DNA of 23,704 nucleotides from a virus (IMGVR_UViG_3300017917_001634:1-23704); one strand, 5' to 3'; counted from the first letter of the stretch, positions 3,471-15,501 are shown. Program-made: numbers and translations. Notes: a model not told the origin generated them from the sequence alone.

Positions 3471-3962
3471 TTATTTTTTCTGTTGTTTCAGTATTTCAGC
3501 TAACAAACTGTTGCGATCTATTACCGTTCCTTCGCCTTCTATAGGACTTGCAGGTCCGTTACCGTTGGCATTCGCAGCTTGATCTAAACGCATTTTCTTA
3601 AGTTGTAGATCAACCATGCGTAGTTTTTTATCTAGTTTAGCTTGTTTGGCTGTAATAGCATGTCCCAGCAGTGTGCCAGCGGTTTGAAATACTGTGCCAC
3701 TGAATCTTGCTTCCATGGCCATGCCTAAATCCATTAAATCGTTGAACTTTTCTTTGGCTAAGTCAGCAAGCTCGTCTAGTTCAGCATCGCTGGCTTCTAG
3801 TCCTCGAACTCCAGGAAGTGCTGAATCTATTTTGTCTATGGCAGAATCTATTTCTGCAAAAGTTGATTGATGTTGTTGCAACTGCTGTGTTGCTTGTTCA
3901 GGGCTAACATCTTCGGGCAGTGCTTCTGGTAAATTGAATAATTCACTGAGTTTTTTGGTCAT
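3471..3962 (-). CDS. 16: Terminase small subunit, gp16-like
   Basis: 163 residues, essentially the length of T4 gp16 (164 aa). gp16 forms oligomeric rings that regulate the gp17 packaging motor. Layout fits: an acidic flexible N-terminus, a central pair of long helices (~residues 66-130) with the family-like run of A, M, L, K and Q, and a short polar tail ending near an LLAEILKQ helix. An MEARFSGTVFQTAGTLL stretch at ~83-100 resembles the conserved central helix where T4 gp16 has RHMEVFATLMGQM. It lies 7 nt after the gp4-like gene. No gp17-like large subunit follows in the window, unlike T4. Spacing to the upstream gene is short and no clear Shine-Dalgarno is seen. The assignment rests on pattern and length without alignment. 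Confidence 0.7.
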   Translation of the reverse strand: MTKKLSELFNLPEALPEDVSPEQATQQLQQHQSTFAEIDSAIDKIDSALPGVRGLEASDAELDELADLAKEKFNDLMDLGMAMEARFSGTVFQTAGTLLGHAITAKQAKLDKKLRMVDLQLKKMRLDQAANANGNGPASPIEGEGTVIDRNSLLAEILKQQKK

Positions 3963-3969
3963 ACCATAT

Positions 3970-4404
3970 TTATGGTTTGGTGCCGTGGAAAATTTGATTT
4001 TCGTTGACTACTCTAAACTTAAGTCCGTTTTGTTGACAAAATGCCGCGGCTGCTTGCCATTTGCAATGATTTAATGCTACCGCAGCTTTATCCCTGGCAG
4101 ACTTGGCAGCTTCCATTGTAGTTTCTTTACTTGGTTTAATCTCTACTACTTCGCCGTGTCGGTTACCATCTCTATCTTGGTATATGATTAAGAAATCGGG
4201 CACATAAATTGTTTTTTTGCGAGTAAAGGGATTTACATAGTTAACATGAATCGCTTCGCTGGCCCATTGTAGTATGGCAGGGTTTTCGTCACAGAACTGC
4301 ATAAATTTGAATTCCCAACTACTGCGATAAGTTGGTTGCTTTTTACCTATGTATTTTTCTGGGTTTTTGATTGTATACTTACCCTGACTGAACTTACTGG
4401 CCAT
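3970..4404 (-). CDS. 4: Head completion protein, gp4-like nuclease fold
   Basis: 144 residues, close to T4 gp4 (150 aa), which acts after DNA packaging to make the head ready for tail joining. Clear family features are seen: GKYTIKNPEKYIG at ~8-20, TYRSSWEFKFM at 25-35, then NP..LQW.SE, VPDFLI at 68-73 and EVVEIKPSKE at 85-94. E31, D70, E88 and K90 form an E-D-ExK arrangement typical of PD-(D/E)xK-type (TnsA/Vsr-like) endonucleases, so a nuclease role at the portal is plausible. The ATG begins 1 nt after the stop of the 125-aa gene, and the gp16-like gene follows after 7 nt, so they are probably one transcript. Confident at family level. Confidence 0.9.
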   Translation of the reverse strand: MASKFSQGKYTIKNPEKYIGKKQPTYRSSWEFKFMQFCDENPAILQWASEAIHVNYVNPFTRKKTIYVPDFLIIYQDRDGNRHGEVVEIKPSKETTMEAAKSARDKAAVALNHCKWQAAAAFCQQNGLKFRVVNENQIFHGTKP

Positions 4405-4796: not shown

Positions 4797-7214
4797 TTAA
4801 TAGTCATAAGTCCAATCACCGGTGCCAATTGGATCTCCTGCGTATGCTTCATATAAACCTTGTTCAGCTTCTGCAGCATTTAAATTCCATTCTTCGGCTG
4901 TAATATTTATAGGAGCGGTTCCACTTTCTGTTCCAAATGCTGTATTAACATACTGTCCAGTGCCTGTTAATATAGGATTACCTGAACCGTCGGTCCAAAT
5001 TGTTGCTTGTTCAAAACCTGCACTGGGATTACCTGCAACTGCATCGCTGGCTGATTTACTGCCACCAAATAAATTACTTAGCCAATTACCTGTACCTGCA
5101 GCAGGCGCTTGAACTTGTGTATAAGTTCCGCTGCTGTCTCTAAACCATTGGCTGCCATCTTTATAGGTAAATGTACCAGTTCCGTCGTTTTCTAAAACTG
5201 CGTTTACTACATTTTTATTTGGGCTATCTTTACTAAAGCCACCGGTGCCAAAAATATCACTGAAAGTATTTTTTATTGTGCCGCCGACATTATCAAACAC
5301 TTGGTTTACACCACCGGCAACTCCATTTAAAATTGGTTGTAATGCATTGTTTACTAACCTACCAGTAACTAAACCAGCTGCACCACTAACACCTGCTGCT
5401 ACAGTTTGGCCCAATACACTCTGACCTAAAAATCCTTTAGTTAAACCAGAATAAAGGGTTTGTGTTGTATATCCGCCTGCAATTAGGCCGCCAGCGCCGC
5501 TCAGTGAATTTACGATCTGTGCAGAAGTTCCACCAATTGTATATGTAACCCCAGTTTGTGGATTTGTGTAGTATCGTACCCCGGCTGGATTTAGTGTTTG
5601 TCCTTGTTGCACTAATGCACTGCTGTTTTCAGGCACAGCAACAGGCTCTGGATTTCCGGTATAATTACTGCCTGGTACTAGCTTTTGTTGAATACCGTTT
5701 TCGTCAATAGTAACTTGGGTACCGTCTCTATATGTGTATACCGTCATGACTTGACCATTACTGTCTGTAATTCTTTGTTTAGATTCTTGATTGGTTTCAA
5801 AGTCGCCTGGATTATATGTACCGCTGGTAGTGCTTAAAACTTGTTTGCCACCAATTGGATTTCCGTCTTCATCTAAAGTCAATGAAGTTTGCTGGTTAGT
5901 TACAGGCTGGCCGTACTGATTTACTAAAATATTATTGCCTTGGTTTGTAGTAACTTGAAATAACTTTGCACTGCCTTGTTGTAGACTATTTGTAATAACA
6001 CCGTTAACATAGTTATTTGCAATAGTTGTCCCAACTGATATTACTCCGGACTGCAAATTATAACCAGTTGGAGTTCCGGCTATGGTAACACCGTTGCCTT
6101 GCGGTAAAGAACTATAAGGATTAGACAGCACATTTGACTGACTATAAACCAATCCACTGCCTAAACTGGCAGTAGGTACTGTAATGCTATTGCCTATAGC
6201 AGCATTTACTGCTTGATTAATGGCAGTAATACCTATACTAGTAAGACTTTGCCGTGCAAGGTTTGTCCAGTTTACATTTTTTAGATTTTTAGCAAGATTA
6301 TAAGCATTTAGTAAAGAGTTGAATATGTTGGCTCCTGAACCTTGGCCGTCTGGTCTTGCCAGATCCTTAGTTCCATTGGCCAGTGCTCCTACTAAACCAT
6401 TATCATCATAGATATTAGTTGTACTGGTACTAATTGGGCTTTGGAAATTATCGTAGTGTATAGTAGCAAACCCGTTTACATCAATTGGATTAATATATCC
6501 TGTTTTATATTTGACAGTTTCAAACACAACAGACATTTGATTTTCCATAATACCAGTGCCCTGTTCACTGTTGTGTTCGCCATGGCGCCAATCACTGATA
6601 TAAGGATTAATTAATTCGTATTCTGTGAATCTTTTATTGTGTAAACTAAAAAGTTGTATGCTGGTTAAAAAAGGAACAACACTGGCATTTCGTGGAGTAA
6701 AGCCCCAACTGTCTGTTAGTCTTGGTTGGTATTTGTGTGGTGTAGAGTAATAAGCTTTAGTGTAGTCACTGTCTCTATAGTAATAGGTATAATAATCGTT
6801 CCAAAATTTAGTTACAACATCTGCTGCATCGTCATGGAATGTTATTGTGATAGGATCATAACTAATTCCAGTTTGAATAATGTTTTTTCTATTGTAAGCA
6901 TTTTTAGTTTGTGTTGCAATCCTGAAGTTAGGTAATCCTACTCTTTTAGCTAACAGCCCAACTTCATATTGTTCTTGTACAGTTTGACTACTGATTTGTG
7001 ATGTAAAAATTTGTTGGCTAAAAAGTGCTGTTACTTGAGACAATAAATCATTACCTAGATTGTTGTTTACATTTATAACAACATAATATAAAAAACTTTG
7101 TTTAGGGGCAAGCCTATAATTATCAGCCAAAAATAACTTAGTAGCATGATCATAAGAATGCGTATAAGTGCCGGGAGTTAAAGGCTTTAGGTCTGCGTTG
7201 TACAAGGTGGCCAT
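4797..7214 (-). CDS. Large virion protein with N-terminal tail-tube-like domain (gp54-like)
   Basis: 805 residues from the chosen ATG. An earlier in-frame ATG (7247) would begin inside the terminator and is unlikely. Residues ~40-240 resemble the T4 gp54/gp19 tube fold: RVGLPNFRIATQTKNAYN, then SYDPITITFHDD, VTKFWNDYY and a closing strand MENQMSVVFETVKYKTGY, which parallels T4 gp54 (ELDPLVISFRMDSE ... FDVTFAYRVM). gp54 starts tube assembly at the baseplate. T4 gp54 is only 320 aa. Here ~550 more residues follow: a helical stretch, then S/T/G/N/Q-rich sequence with several D-x-D/N-G beta-hairpin units (DEDGNPIGG, DSNGQVMT, RDGTQVTIDENG, KDGSQWFRD) and a glycine/alanine-rich segment ~560-640. 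It lies directly after gp19 behind a terminator. The extension may decorate the baseplate; the gp54 call is moderate. Confidence 0.6.
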   Translation of the reverse strand: MATLYNADLKPLTPGTYTHSYDHATKLFLADNYRLAPKQSFLYYVVINVNNNLGNDLLSQVTALFSQQIFTSQISSQTVQEQYEVGLLAKRVGLPNFRIATQTKNAYNRKNIIQTGISYDPITITFHDDAADVVTKFWNDYYTYYYRDSDYTKAYYSTPHKYQPRLTDSWGFTPRNASVVPFLTSIQLFSLHNKRFTEYELINPYISDWRHGEHNSEQGTGIMENQMSVVFETVKYKTGYINPIDVNGFATIHYDNFQSPISTSTTNIYDDNGLVGALANGTKDLARPDGQGSGANIFNSLLNAYNLAKNLKNVNWTNLARQSLTSIGITAINQAVNAAIGNSITVPTASLGSGLVYSQSNVLSNPYSSLPQGNGVTIAGTPTGYNLQSGVISVGTTIANNYVNGVITNSLQQGSAKLFQVTTNQGNNILVNQYGQPVTNQQTSLTLDEDGNPIGGKQVLSTTSGTYNPGDFETNQESKQRITDSNGQVMTVYTYRDGTQVTIDENGIQQKLVPGSNYTGNPEPVAVPENSSALVQQGQTLNPAGVRYYTNPQTGVTYTIGGTSAQIVNSLSGAGGLIAGGYTTQTLYSGLTKGFLGQSVLGQTVAAGVSGAAGLVTGRLVNNALQPILNGVAGGVNQVFDNVGGTIKNTFSDIFGTGGFSKDSPNKNVVNAVLENDGTGTFTYKDGSQWFRDSSGTYTQVQAPAAGTGNWLSNLFGGSKSASDAVAGNPSAGFEQATIWTDGSGNPILTGTGQYVNTAFGTESGTAPINITAEEWNLNAAEAEQGLYEAYAGDPIGTGDWTYDY

Positions 7215-7229
7215 GCTAATATTTATTCC

Positions 7230-11730: not shown

Positions 11731-11959
11731 GCCTAGTGTACCAACTTGGTTTAAAGCAGGGTATAGGAAAAAACCAAAATGTGAAAAATGCGGATTTTTA
11801 TCAAAATTAGTTGATAAACAAATATCAGTACATTATATAGACGGTGATTTAAAAAATAATTTGTCTCAAAATTTGATATCTGTATGCTTGAATTGCAAAG
11901 TTGAAATTGCAGATTCTAAGATTAAATGGAAGCCTGCGCCAATTATACCAGATTTTTAA
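11711..11959 (+). pseudogene. Out-of-frame zinc-finger C-terminus of the GIY-YIG protein
   Basis: Reading in the frame reached by deleting one A from the A8 run at 11719-11726, the sequence stays open for 78 codons beyond the run, to a TAA at 11957. It encodes KIKPSVPTWFKAGYRKKP, then CEKCG, a VHYIDGDLKNN segment, CLNC and a final IKWKPAPIIPDF. With the upstream CPVC and CNTC pairs this gives four CxxC knuckles, an arrangement I recall from intact phage GIY-YIG and HNH-associated proteins. There is no start codon of its own. Its end overlaps the dNMP kinase 3' end by 17 nt on the opposite strand. It is either a real inactivating frameshift, a slippage site or a one-base assembly error. Confidence 0.8.
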
Positions 11960-12539
11960 GTTCTCTGTATAAGTCTTCAATTGAACCGTCGTTGTCAATT
12001 GTAATATCAAAGTCTGTAGCAGCCCAACTGTATTCGCTGGCATGAATATTAGGATACATTTTCTTCATTTCAAGAGGCGCAATTCTTGCTAATTGAAACC
12101 ACTCAGGATCTAAGCCTCGAGCTATTCTAACTACTCGACCGCCTGCGTTTCGTATACTGGCGATTTCGTTGGGAAATCTACAGTCTGTAATTACAATATT
12201 ATCTTTGGTCTGTCGTAGTTTATTTTCTACGCTGGCGATCCAAATATCGTCGTGAAACGATTTACGACAAACTTCAGTGCCCCATAGTTGTAGCACTAAC
12301 CTAGGAGTAAGATCAGGCATGTTTAGTCGCTGACTCCACCACGGGTCTATTTGTTCGCGCCATTCTCTGGCAGCTTTAGTTCTGCCCTCTAGTAATTCAC
12401 GGTCCCAGCTAAACACTGATGCCACAGCATCTTTAAGAGTGTTAGCAAAGCTTTCTCTCTTAAAGCCGTGAAAATTAACAAGATAATCAGCAGCTGTGTC
12501 TTTGCCACTGCCAATTAAACCACAAAATCCAATAATCAT
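11943..12539 (-). CDS. 1: Deoxynucleoside monophosphate kinase, T4 gp1-like
   Basis: 198 residues from the chosen ATG. It should phosphorylate dNMPs to dNDPs with ATP, feeding phage DNA synthesis. The Walker A loop is GLIGSGKDT at 7-15, with Asp in place of the usual Ser/Thr after Lys, as in T4 gp1 (RSGKDT). LQLWGTEVCR at ~83-92 and VITDCRFPNEI at ~113-123 match the family's LMQALGTDL and IVPDTRQDHE regions; DFDITIDNDGSIEDLY near the C-terminus parallels T4's DLVITNDGSLEELF. An earlier ATG (12569) lies inside the -35 element of the promoter and is rejected. The gene follows gp13 by 14 nt but has its own consensus sigma70 promoter whose -10 lies 6 nt before the ATG. Confidence 0.92.
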   Translation of the reverse strand: MIIGFCGLIGSGKDTAADYLVNFHGFKRESFANTLKDAVASVFSWDRELLEGRTKAAREWREQIDPWWSQRLNMPDLTPRLVLQLWGTEVCRKSFHDDIWIASVENKLRQTKDNIVITDCRFPNEIASIRNAGGRVVRIARGLDPEWFQLARIAPLEMKKMYPNIHASEYSWAATDFDITIDNDGSIEDLYRELKNLV

Positions 12540-12545
12540 GCAGTA

Positions 12546-12574
12546 ATTATATATTATCCCGTAACCCATGTCAA
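12546..12574 (-). promoter_or_regulatory. Consensus sigma70 promoter for dNMP kinase
   Basis: On the minus strand TTGACA (12574-12569), a 17-bp spacer and TATAAT (12551-12546) are a perfect match to the bacterial housekeeping promoter. The ATG follows only 6 nt after the -10, so transcription should begin at or next to the start codon. The -35 lies inside the last codons of gp13. Confidence 0.8.
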
Positions 12575-13732
12575 TGGGGTAGAACCATCAACATACCGTT
12601 TTAGATCTTCTTCCAATTGTGCCATTTCAGCTTGGGCTTCAGACAACAGTGCAGTTCCATTCAAAACTGTACCACCCTGTGGGCCAGCTAGTTGGCTGAA
12701 TTTACCGCGGGCCTGTCCTAAAATACTTTTGGCAAATGCCAGTGCATATTCTTGTAACCAAGGATAAACTTGTGGGTCACTTAATAGCATACTGTCTGGC
12801 TTGTAGTTATAAACCCAAAGTAAAACTGGTTCAAGCTCGTTTTCACCGTAATATGGATTAGGGATCCAAAATTCGCTTTTGGTCAAATCTGTGCCAGTAA
12901 CTGTGTTTGCAGACAATGTTTGATTTGATGCTACTGTAATAGAAGTAGCAGTGCCGTTTACGCTAACAATCCTATACTGACTATTATACCCGCGCACAGG
13001 ACAATGTTGAATATAAATGCTGTCGCCAACTGCTAAGTTACTTTGATAACTTGTTGTGCTTGTGGGCAAAGTGATAGTAATGGTGCTGTTAGCAGCTAAG
13101 GCGCTAGAAGTAATTGCTGTAGGCTTGACAATAGTGCCGCCATCGTAAGGGATTTTTCTCACAAGTGTGAGTTTTTTAGTAACACGATTCCAAGTGTAGT
13201 TGATGTAACCACCAAACATGGTCATGGCCAGTTCTTGGTAAGCAGTGAATAATTCGTAGTTTGTAAGACCACCAACACGGCCTGCTACCAACATGTAAGT
13301 GTTCAAATAACCAGAAGCAAAGGGTTCAAACTGGCTAGCTGTAGTACCACTAGTTGAACCAATGCCTCTACGGAATATTTGTCTTACTTCTTGAATGTAG
13401 TTAGGTAAAATATATTCTTGTACATCAGGTAATAAGTCTAAAAATATATAACTTTCTTCTGTGCTGTTTTGTGCTTTTTGACGATATTTTGTAAGTGCTT
13501 GTTTGATAGCCAAATCATAATGTTCTTTGTCCAATTCAACATCAACGATTTGATCGCCCAAACGCAAACGAATGTAGTCAATCATATCGTTGCGTAATTG
13601 ACTTAGTGTTTGTATTTGTTCGTTGGCGGCTATAGCACTGGCTTGGCTAATAAAGCCAGGGCCGCCCAGGTTTTGAGTTCTTACACTGTAATCTGATTTT
13701 AGATCTGGTACAACTACTGTATTGTCTGACAT
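12554..13732 (-). CDS. 13: Neck protein gp13-like, with inserted beta domain
   Basis: 392 residues versus 309 in T4 gp13, which with gp14 closes the packaged head and forms the neck that accepts the tail. Family features: RNDMIDYIRLRLGD at ~47-60, HYDLAIKQALTKYRQKAQNSTEE at ~71-93, YILPNYIQEVRQIFRRG at ~107-123 and a C-terminal PWLQEYALAFAKSILG ... RGKFSQL helix region with AQLEEDLKRYV. Residues ~201-286 (ITSSALAANSTITITLP ... AVGDSIYIQH ... ITVASNQTLSANTVTGT) are a beta-rich insertion absent from T4. AGGA lies 8 nt before the ATG but is inside the 3' arm of a hairpin. It is on the strand opposite gp14/gp15, unlike T4. Confidence 0.9.
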   Translation of the reverse strand: MSDNTVVVPDLKSDYSVRTQNLGGPGFISQASAIAANEQIQTLSQLRNDMIDYIRLRLGDQIVDVELDKEHYDLAIKQALTKYRQKAQNSTEESYIFLDLLPDVQEYILPNYIQEVRQIFRRGIGSTSGTTASQFEPFASGYLNTYMLVAGRVGGLTNYELFTAYQELAMTMFGGYINYTWNRVTKKLTLVRKIPYDGGTIVKPTAITSSALAANSTITITLPTSTTSYQSNLAVGDSIYIQHCPVRGYNSQYRIVSVNGTATSITVASNQTLSANTVTGTDLTKSEFWIPNPYYGENELEPVLLWVYNYKPDSMLLSDPQVYPWLQEYALAFAKSILGQARGKFSQLAGPQGGTVLNGTALLSEAQAEMAQLEEDLKRYVDGSTPLTWVTG

Positions 13733-13737
13733 AAATG

Positions 13738-13769
13738 AGTCCTATTAGCCTTATTTAGCTAACAGGACT
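13738..13769 (-). promoter_or_regulatory. Hairpin covering the gp13 ribosome-binding site, with late-box-like loop
   Basis: The minus-strand RNA can form a 12-bp stem (AGUCCUGUUAGC with GCUAAUAGGACU, one G-U pair) with an 8-nt loop (UAAAUAAG). The 3' arm contains the AGGA of gp13, 5 nt from its ATG. No U-run follows, so it is not a terminator. GCTAAATA (13759-13752), 19 nt before the ATG, resembles the late promoter boxes of this phage. A transcript started there would lack the 5' arm and leave the site open. Confidence 0.6.
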
Positions 13770-13775
13770 GGATAA

Positions 13776-14927
13776 TCATTGACATTTCAACAGTAGGATA
13801 TCTGCGTTAATGCGCCCGTTTAACTTAGTATCTGTGGCACGGATGTCTTCAAGGAATTTACGCAACTGTACTTTGCCAGCTTTGGCAAACTCCCGCAACT
13901 GTTCTTCGGGTTTACGCAGAGTTTTGCAAGTGCTTTTGTCTGTGTCAAAGTTTACAATTGAAGTGCCCTTGATGTTCAGTGTTTGATAGCTTGCAGCCAC
14001 ATACTTGCCCAGTTTGCGGGTTTTGCTGTTGTAGACCCAAAGCTCTTGAGCTCCAATGATTTCAGCAGGGTTAATGCTGACAATCTTAAGCTCTTTGTTT
14101 TCTTTGGCGTATTTCAGTTTGGCCACAACTTTTTCTTTGCTGGGTGCTTTCTTGACCCTGGCTTTTTTCACCGCCTTTTTAACTGAACGGTACTGTTCTA
14201 CAGCTTCAAGCAATTGGTCAATCCAAGCGATACGGCGTTTAAAATCCTGGCTTTTGTAGTGACTGTAAGCTTCTTTTAACTGTGCATCAGCCTTGCTTTG
14301 CGCTTGCTCTAGCTCGGTTTTCCTACGGGTATATAAATCCACATATTTGTTTAGCTGGCTTTGTACCACATTGTTGCTGACAAACCAGTCGTAGACTTTG
14401 AAAGTTTCTTGATCATCGTACTTGCCCTCAAGTTCTCCGATAAGTTCCGAGGTCTTTTCTGCCAGGCGGTCTTGAATAGTGGGCTTGTATGCCGCTTGCT
14501 CAGGGCTATTGATAACTTCAATGGGCTCAGGCTCGGCGCTGGCAATAGCTGTTTGGATGCTGTCGTCCAGGAACTGGATGTGACGCTGATTCAACGGCAT
14601 ACCTTTTCGGTGTGCCATAACTAGCCCGCAGGCAGTCATATTAATTGCTTTATCACTGCTGCGAATAAATGCTTTAATTTCTGCTTTATCAAACTCTTTT
14701 GTATTTTGCATCCACTCCACAACATACTTCTTACAGTCCTTTTGACTGTAATGGTAATTGTAGTAGTTAAAACTTTGGCGAAGTTTATGGTCAAACTTTT
14801 CAGCAGGCCAATCTTTTGACTCTTCAGTCCATTCGGGCTCAGGGCCTGTATATTTTTCGTCAGCAAAAGCAATCCTGCGCTCTTTGGGTGCTTTTGTTTT
14901 AATTTTGATGCCAGCAACTGTTGCCAT
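13776..14927 (-). CDS. Conserved hypothetical phage protein, basic and helical
   Basis: 383 residues from the ATG preceded by GGAG 7 nt upstream; a TTG 12 nt earlier is part of that ribosome site. The N-terminus (MATVAGIKIKTKAPKERRIAFADEKYTGPEPEW) and the NYYNYHYSQKDCKKYVVEWM segment at ~54-73 are ones I recall from T4-like marine phages. A helical middle follows, with a strongly basic patch near 228-248 (VKKAVKKARVKKAP) and a long charged coil ~160-225. The last ~120 residues look like a mixed alpha/beta domain (ELWVYNSKTRKLGKY). It follows the 78-aa gene by 1 nt and should be read from the sigma70 promoter before it, so it is probably early. The basic patch suggests nucleic-acid contact. 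Function unknown. Confidence 0.85.
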   Translation of the reverse strand: MATVAGIKIKTKAPKERRIAFADEKYTGPEPEWTEESKDWPAEKFDHKLRQSFNYYNYHYSQKDCKKYVVEWMQNTKEFDKAEIKAFIRSSDKAINMTACGLVMAHRKGMPLNQRHIQFLDDSIQTAIASAEPEPIEVINSPEQAAYKPTIQDRLAEKTSELIGELEGKYDDQETFKVYDWFVSNNVVQSQLNKYVDLYTRRKTELEQAQSKADAQLKEAYSHYKSQDFKRRIAWIDQLLEAVEQYRSVKKAVKKARVKKAPSKEKVVAKLKYAKENKELKIVSINPAEIIGAQELWVYNSKTRKLGKYVAASYQTLNIKGTSIVNFDTDKSTCKTLRKPEEQLREFAKAGKVQLRKFLEDIRATDTKLNGRINADILLLKCQ

Positions 14928-14928
14928 A

Positions 14929-15165
14929 TTAAACTCCAAATTCTCGTTTCACACGCCCGATGCGATTGTTTTTGTTCCAATCGTATCGAACACCGTCGGG
15001 ACAGACACCGTCTCGGATGCTGTCAACACCAAACACTCCACACACTTCAAAGTCAGGCCCTTTGATTGTAACAAAACAGCCCTGAGCTTTGGCCACTAGC
15101 ATGGCAGAATCCAAAGTTTCAAAGCCGCCTAGCTTGTTACCGTTTTTGCTAAAAAGTGTGTACAT
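14929..15165 (-). CDS. Small conserved hypothetical, probable early gene
   Basis: 78 residues, beginning MYTLFSKNGNKLGGF and containing FVTIKGPDFEVCGVFGVDSI and CPDGVRYDWNKNNRIGRVKRE. It looks like a compact beta-rich domain with a basic C-terminus. A near-consensus promoter lies so close that its -10 ends 6 nt before the ATG, so it may be translated from a leaderless mRNA. No Shine-Dalgarno is visible and no later Met has one either. Its stop overlaps the ribosome site of the following 383-aa gene, so the two form one unit. I do not recognise the function. Confidence 0.75.
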   Translation of the reverse strand: MYTLFSKNGNKLGGFETLDSAMLVAKAQGCFVTIKGPDFEVCGVFGVDSIRDGVCPDGVRYDWNKNNRIGRVKREFGV

Positions 15166-15171
15166 AGATTA

Positions 15172-15200
15172 ATTATAACACCAAATCTAAATTTGGTCAA
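15172..15200 (-). promoter_or_regulatory. Sigma70 promoter with extended -10
   Basis: On the minus strand TTGACC (15200-15195), a 17-bp spacer and TATAAT (15177-15172), preceded by TGT, an extended -10. The expected transcription start falls on or next to the ATG of the 78-aa gene. The -35 overlaps the TGA stop of the 88-aa gene. Confidence 0.75.
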
Positions 15201-15463
15201 GTATGCATTAAAGCGGACATTGTAATCCACTGTTCAAAAATGCTTAGGTGCTCTTCAAAAAGGCGTTCTAAATCTGCATACTTTGGTGTTACAGTGTTCC
15301 TACGCCTACAATTTACCATTTCCTTGTCCAATTCTGTCCAAATGGTGCGGGCAGTATGGTAAAACTTCCACAATGTGCTTCTAGCTCGAATATCTTCAGT
15401 ATGCTGCAATGCCATAAATGCATCTTGCAGGCGTGTGTGGAGAGCTTGGTGTCTTTCTTGCAT
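15197..15463 (-). CDS. Small helical hypothetical, probable early gene
   Basis: 88 residues, almost entirely helical and charged (MQERHQALHTRLQDAFMALQ, STLWKFYHTARTIWTELDKEM, CRRR, LERLFEEHLSIFEQWITM). No catalytic motif or membrane segment. A perfect consensus sigma70 promoter lies just before it, with the -10 9 nt from the ATG and no Shine-Dalgarno. It reads away from gp14 and ends at the -35 element of the next promoter. Small helical proteins expressed early by T4-like phages often act on host factors, but nothing here shows that. Real gene judged likely from promoter and context, function unknown. Confidence 0.7.
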   Translation of the reverse strand: MQERHQALHTRLQDAFMALQHTEDIRARSTLWKFYHTARTIWTELDKEMVNCRRRNTVTPKYADLERLFEEHLSIFEQWITMSALMHT

Positions 15464-15472
15464 ATAGTTGTA

Positions 15473-15501
15473 ATTATAATGCCTTTGATATTTACTGTCA
15501 A
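15473..15501 (-). promoter_or_regulatory. Perfect consensus sigma70 promoter
   Basis: TTGACA (15501-15496), a 17-bp spacer and TATAAT (15478-15473) on the minus strand. The ATG of the 88-aa gene lies 9 nt beyond the -10, predicting a leader of about 0-3 nt. A plus-strand late box for gp14 lies immediately upstream of this promoter, making a divergent early/late control region. Confidence 0.82.

Follow-up and report, generated by a model that had tools for sequence, protein, structure and literature searches.

The virus fragment IMGVR_UViG_3300017917_001634 (23.7 kb, from IMG/VR; the term window refers to this whole stretch) contains three sigma70-type promoters which very probably give rise to leaderless mRNAs, as part of a wider habit of both sigma70-type and late promoters in giant phages of the T4 type. 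All three are located on the minus strand, have a spacer of 17 bp and reside directly 5' of a gene, with the predicted start point at its ATG or within the roughly 5 nt of it that we allow for a leaderless gene. The first, TTGACA-N17-TATAAT (TTGACAGTAAATATCAAAGGCATTATAAT, 15501-15473), belongs to a gene for an 88-aa protein without known family in profile searches (15197..15463), the start codon of which lies immediately past the promoter (ATG at 15463, 9 nt beyond the -10, N9), giving a predicted leader of 2-3 nt. The second, TTGACC-N17-TATAAT (TTGACCAAATTTAGATTTGGTGTTATAAT, 15200-15172), is followed after 6 nt (N6) by the ATG of a 78-aa gene at 15165, the A of which is the predicted +1; this gene (14929..15165) is also without known family and has 57 relatives in IMG/VR. 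The third, again TTGACA-N17-TATAAT (TTGACATGGGTTACGGGATAATATATAAT, 12574-12546), precedes by 6 nt the ATG at 12539 of a deoxynucleoside monophosphate kinase (dNMP kinase) of 198 aa (11943..12539; Pfam DNMK and PHROG 139 matches). An upstream check revealed no Shine-Dalgarno sequence (SD) before any of the three ATGs, and both this absence and the promoter-ATG distances agree exactly with an initial annotation of the window, which had proposed a leaderless class of early genes.

In the mechanism that we favor, the RNA polymerase of the host, with its sigma70-type factor, would use the three promoters and start RNA synthesis 7 nt past the -10. For dNMP kinase and the 78-aa gene, the first nucleotide would then be the A of the AUG itself, and the RNA of the 88-aa gene would begin 2-3 nt ahead of its AUG. 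As the RNA would start at or that close to the AUG, the mRNAs would carry no SD, and ribosomes would be expected to bind via the 5'-terminal AUG. The same would apply to a share of the sigma70 and ATAAATA promoters throughout a large group of T4-type giant phages, most of them uncultured, while the remaining promoters would produce short leaders with an SD. This reading is based on sequence layout, conservation, the spike of ATGs at N6, the absence of SDs and predicted hairpin folds, from which we infer start point, leaderless translation, timing and purpose.

The spike emerged from a scan of the window and twelve other contigs, about 1.1 Mb, in which 128 strict consensus promoters were identified. 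At 35 of these an ATG is located at exactly N6, compared to roughly two per neighboring distance, and the frame that it opens extends over at least 43 codons in 30 of the 35 cases. A second, broad peak of ATGs occurs 26-33 nt past the -10, in most cases with an SD; in these phages, 18-45 nt and then an SD-led ATG follow roughly half of the consensus sigma70 promoters. An SD-like motif is present in a single member of the N6 class (1/35), as opposed to 55 of the 62 promoters with leaders of 18-45 nt. TATAAT without a -35 yielded no ATG spike. Leadered promoters commonly have a pyrimidine followed by A/T at the seventh and T at the eighth position past TATAAT; as these initiator positions correspond to the A and T of the ATG in the leaderless class, one and the same start point fits both. 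Separately, a recurrent motif (roughly TTGACC-NNAAATGGNTTT-NNTGNTATAAT) was observed in the 17-bp spacer of sigma70 promoters of contigs G001, G002, G004, G007 and G010, which is perhaps the site of a phage regulator.

A similar situation was found for the T4-late motif ATAAATA. Among 201 such sites, 55 have an open ATG (at least 60 codons) at a distance of 4-7 nt; distances of 0-3 nt are not represented at all and those of 8-14 nt only rarely, before the ATGs peak again at 17-22 nt. Only one of the 55 has an SD, and other AT-rich motifs of similar composition produced no comparable spike. In relatives outside the first set, 55 of 235 distinct ATAAATA sites displayed the N4-5 spacing. Within the window, this late leaderless layout precedes a 163-aa gene (ATAAATA at 3967..3973, minus strand, 4 nt before the ATG at 3962) and an 805-aa tail-tube-like gene (7220..7226, minus strand, 5 nt before the ATG at 7214), and the orthologs of both genes retain it. 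Of the twelve uncultured contigs tested, several of them fragments, six contain a gene for a late sigma factor of the gp55 type (phrog_234), which is not encoded within the window itself. The layout is hence not restricted to the sigma70 class presumed to be early, since the ATAAATA promoters exhibit an equally sharp leaderless class.

Gene-by-gene comparison further revealed that the layout is maintained in relatives. Upstream of dNMP kinase, TATAAT-N6-ATG is kept in the relatives L004, L005 and L007, which share 83-90% protein identity, while the six letters between the -10 and the ATG vary (TACTGC in the window; CAGTAC, TACTAG and CAGCAC in the relatives), and the diverged lineages L034, L037, L046 and L059 again have N5-6. 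The start of this gene is well constrained, as had been claimed: it cannot lie further in, as residue 7 already marks the beginning of the P-loop, and the sole earlier in-frame ATG, located within the -35, is separated from the gene by a TAG in L005. The 78-aa family provides 31 distinct upstream sequences. Among the 25 that bear a promoter, 20 have N6, a count which includes two upstreams whose start had been set late in the script, five have N7, and none has an SD; among the six without a promoter, five have one. In the 88-aa family, the distance to the ATG is 5-7 nt in about 16 relatives, and this spacing is kept at a protein identity of only about 37% in those first found. Absence of the pattern from close relatives, which the initial annotation had named as a refuting result, was thus not observed, and the pattern is retained even in diverged ones. 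An additional protein family of 108-112 aa (RKRRQDTKHAVY.. / RKRRTDRNQV..) with a leaderless-type start was observed in the diverged contigs G001 (133750), G003 (116244), G007 (7287) and G010 (17353).

The second gene of the operon headed by the 78-aa gene encodes 383 aa (13776..14927, minus strand; PHROG 11903) and has an SD, GGAG, at 14937-14934. Since the 78-aa gene has none, SD use and SD absence stand side by side in one operon. In L004, L005, L006, L007, L019, L038 and L054, the 78-aa gene is missing after the second promoter, and the gene of the 383-aa family found in its place has a leader of 23-30 nt. As the same promoter drives a leadered gene there, the leader appears to be a property of the gene and not of the promoter.

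The promoter of the dNMP kinase gene overlaps the 3' end and stop codon of the neck, or head-tail adaptor, gene located upstream (12554..13732, minus strand; PHROG 211). In most relatives, the kinase gene has a promoter and a leader (20-28 nt from -10 to ATG, often with a T-run directly before the ATG) that is predicted to fold into an SD-containing hairpin, the 5' arm of which overlaps the -10 and the predicted start point. The mean folding z-score of 34 distinct leadered upstreams was -3.3, and 83% of the hairpin pairs would be missing from an RNA begun at +1; in two upstreams that scored zero, the hairpin reaches further upstream and becomes visible in a longer fold. The relatives thus have a predicted hairpin over SD or start with its 5' arm at or upstream of the start point, the arrangement described for T4 gene e. 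Read-through RNA would accordingly be terminated or silent and the gene's own RNA translatable, which suggests, as far as the modeled folds are concerned, that dNMP kinase in the leadered relatives is translated only from its own promoter. Hairpins with the 5' arm over the -10, often with a T-run touching the ATG, were noted in L008, L010, L033, L044, L047, L053, L072 and others. For the window, we propose that a leaderless start may do the job of the hairpin without a hairpin, because ribosomes should make poor use of an internal AUG without an SD. Translation would then be confined to RNA begun at the gene's own promoter, and the relatives would reach the same end by a hairpin that forms in read-through RNA only. 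Insulation from read-through was also considered as the reason for all leaderless genes, but this idea was dropped, as read-through is no threat to the 88-aa gene, whose upstream neighbor is divergently oriented.

A predicted 13-bp hairpin is further located just before the start of the neck gene (13738-13769, minus strand), the loop of which contains CTAAATA (13758-13752) and the 3' arm AGGA; hairpins of 12-13 bp with a CTAAATA loop also precede the neck gene in contigs G012 (10537) and G014 (13278). Here, the idea of a promoter within a hairpin would involve a late-promoter-like CTAAATA. When all contigs were scanned for a hairpin and T-run directly before an ATG, few were found besides those of dNMP kinase and the neck gene, hence the hairpin is not a general device.

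The most serious alternative, which we nevertheless consider unlikely, is that the working mRNAs start further upstream and that ribosomes reach these start codons via an unstructured leader lacking an SD, e.g., with the help of ribosomal protein S1. Phage mRNAs without SD do exist, as huge phages with S1 rarely have SDs (PMC7162821), and a longer RNA could include the ATG of dNMP kinase, which the neck gene precedes. However, starts further upstream leave unexplained the spike at a single nucleotide distance, the conserved -35 and -10 next to the ATG and the gain of an SD by the same gene when it is promoterless, and according to the predicted folds the hairpin of the leadered relatives would hide the start of dNMP kinase in read-through RNA. 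Alternatively, the initiator might simply be A-T-rich at +1/+2, so that an ATG arises at N6 by composition while the true starts lie downstream. Leadered promoters indeed have A/T and then T at the same positions, and an SD-led ATG occurs further on in 3 of the 35 N6 cases. Yet G occupies the third position in just 6% of the leadered promoters, which predicts about 3 ATGs among the 128 and not 35; moreover, 30 of the 35 N6 frames are open, the 78-aa, 88-aa, dNMP kinase and 108-aa protein families begin at this N6-type ATG, and within the late N4-7 class none of the 55 cases has an SD-led alternative start within 60 nt. This renders an origin by composition highly improbable.

That the promoters are chance matches in an AT-rich genome is hardly credible. 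The window does contain many less strict promoter matches (52 between 10000 and 23704, where 37 are expected), but the strict pattern TTGACN-N16-18-TATAAT occurs at just these three sites in the whole window, while shuffled sequences are expected to have 0.10 and none of 100 shuffles reached three, in agreement with the earlier claim that the repeated layout argues against chance. The position-by-position conservation finally refutes a random origin.

Several points nevertheless weigh against a leaderless interpretation. Consensus matches alone are no proof of promoter use, and the evidence consists of DNA sequence, from which transcript ends and protein starts are predicted. The 9-nt spacing of the window's own 88-aa gene is an outlier with respect to the 5-7 nt of its relatives. 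The replicate in relatives outside the first set, with N6 at 52 of 112 sigma70 promoters, was partly selected, many loci having been fetched via the 78-aa gene. In an IMG/VR sample, TATAAT-N6-ATG was followed by open frames in 55 of 84 cases among the matches listed, which is suggestive but not decisive; as a control sample with N8 had open ATGs in 34 of 79 cases among the matches listed, an open frame by itself says little outside this group. Finally, the layout is rare in the cultured relatives, with N5-7 at 6 of about 130 sigma70 promoters in six genomes, and late N4-7 spacings are no more frequent there than in the control; as a consequence, no laboratory phage of the group confirms the layout. 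Taken together, the leaderless early gene class that the initial annotation had suggested holds in part. Its leaderless nature is strongly supported, as judged from the layout, by the N6 spike, the gene-by-gene conservation and the shared initiator position, and by the fact that the same gene has an SD only where it is internal to an operon. Its restriction to early genes is not, because about half of the sigma70 promoters are leadered with an SD and the ATAAATA promoters include a leaderless class that is just as sharp.

There are precedents for leaderless mRNAs, and even for classes of leaderless phage genes. In leaderless genes of Mycobacterium, Corynebacterium and Deinococcus, the -10 is located about 6-7 nt before the ATG, and lambda cI is leaderless when transcribed from PRM. 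The geometry is alike, a -10, about 6 nt and an ATG without an SD; however, those cases concern host genomes or a single phage gene, whereas here the layout is recurrent and phage-wide, includes a full -35 and has a late version as well. Thermus phage phiYS40 produces leaderless middle and late mRNAs while IF2 of the host is raised and IF3 lowered (PMC3594737). It is thus similarly a large phage with a whole class of leaderless mRNAs (PMC3594737), but its host is thermophilic and middle and late genes are concerned, while here consensus sigma70 and T4-late-type promoters are used in an unrelated, T4-type group. In the T4 genes e, soc, 49 and I-TevI, the promoter resides inside the 5' arm of a hairpin hiding the ribosome site (PMC3014915). 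The dNMP kinase hairpin of the relatives would likewise be complete in read-through RNA only, while transcripts from the gene's own promoter would have it in broken form. In T4, however, late promoters silence early read-through, while the promoter in the arm is here of the sigma70 type and a T-run often renders the hairpin terminator-like; in addition, the window's own kinase copy is leaderless instead of hairpin-masked. The literature searched contained no report of leaderless genes in T4-type or jumbo/giant phages, although such absence is not proof, and none of a leaderless layout at sigma70 and late promoters together.

The T4-like neck, tail sheath and tail tube genes, along with a T4-type head closure gene, place the window among T4-type phages. 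The closest cultured relatives are the giant T4-type phages Phosso, Atu_ph07, CBB, PBECO4, GAP32 and RaK2, in which dNMP kinase has 40-50% identity to that of the window. The kinase gene of the window sits among late structural genes; similarly, it is close to the tail sheath gene in those inspected among CBB, PBECO4, GAP32, RaK2 (Mimasvirus, Asteriusvirus, Alcyoneusvirus), Phosso and Atu_ph07, and close to the neck gene too in CBB, PBECO4 and Hallingskeid. No match to the 78-aa protein was obtained in a search of cultured phages or in a scan of a genome collection aimed at finding the host.

The cultured giant T4-type phages differ from the uncultured group in having few leaderless layouts and mostly an IF3, a factor which acts against leaderless initiation. 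For this comparison, uncultured records were taken from G001-G032 and cultured ones were W01-W12. An IF3 gene (PF00707 search) was identified in 10 of the 12 cultured giant records, the exceptions being PA5oct and SCTP-2, and in none of the 24 uncultured records tested; bS21 (PF01165 search) was present in 5 of 12 cultured and 11 of 21 uncultured records, and most of the large uncultured records were among these 11. This pattern is a lead and not a result, as it could be due entirely to common ancestry and to the incompleteness of contigs. It might be speculated, although we regard this as rather doubtful, that in a widespread giant T4-type lineage leaderless initiation is the standard mode for early and late genes, with genes such as dNMP kinase tied to their own promoter, read-through silent and the host ribosomes tuned accordingly (bS21 in most larger contigs, IF3 absent), while the cultured sisters carry IF3 and avoid leaderless genes.

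If transcription starts agree with the predictions, leaderless translation would be a strategy that selection maintains, exact to the position, in giant phages abundant in the environment, and not just a curiosity seen in Thermus phages or a few phage genes. Start codons in these genomes may then be misplaced by gene callers designed to expect a leader. The phages would also provide a natural system to study how ribosomes choose leaderless mRNAs during infection, and would offer a testable explanation of why phages carry initiation factors and ribosomal proteins such as IF3 and bS21.

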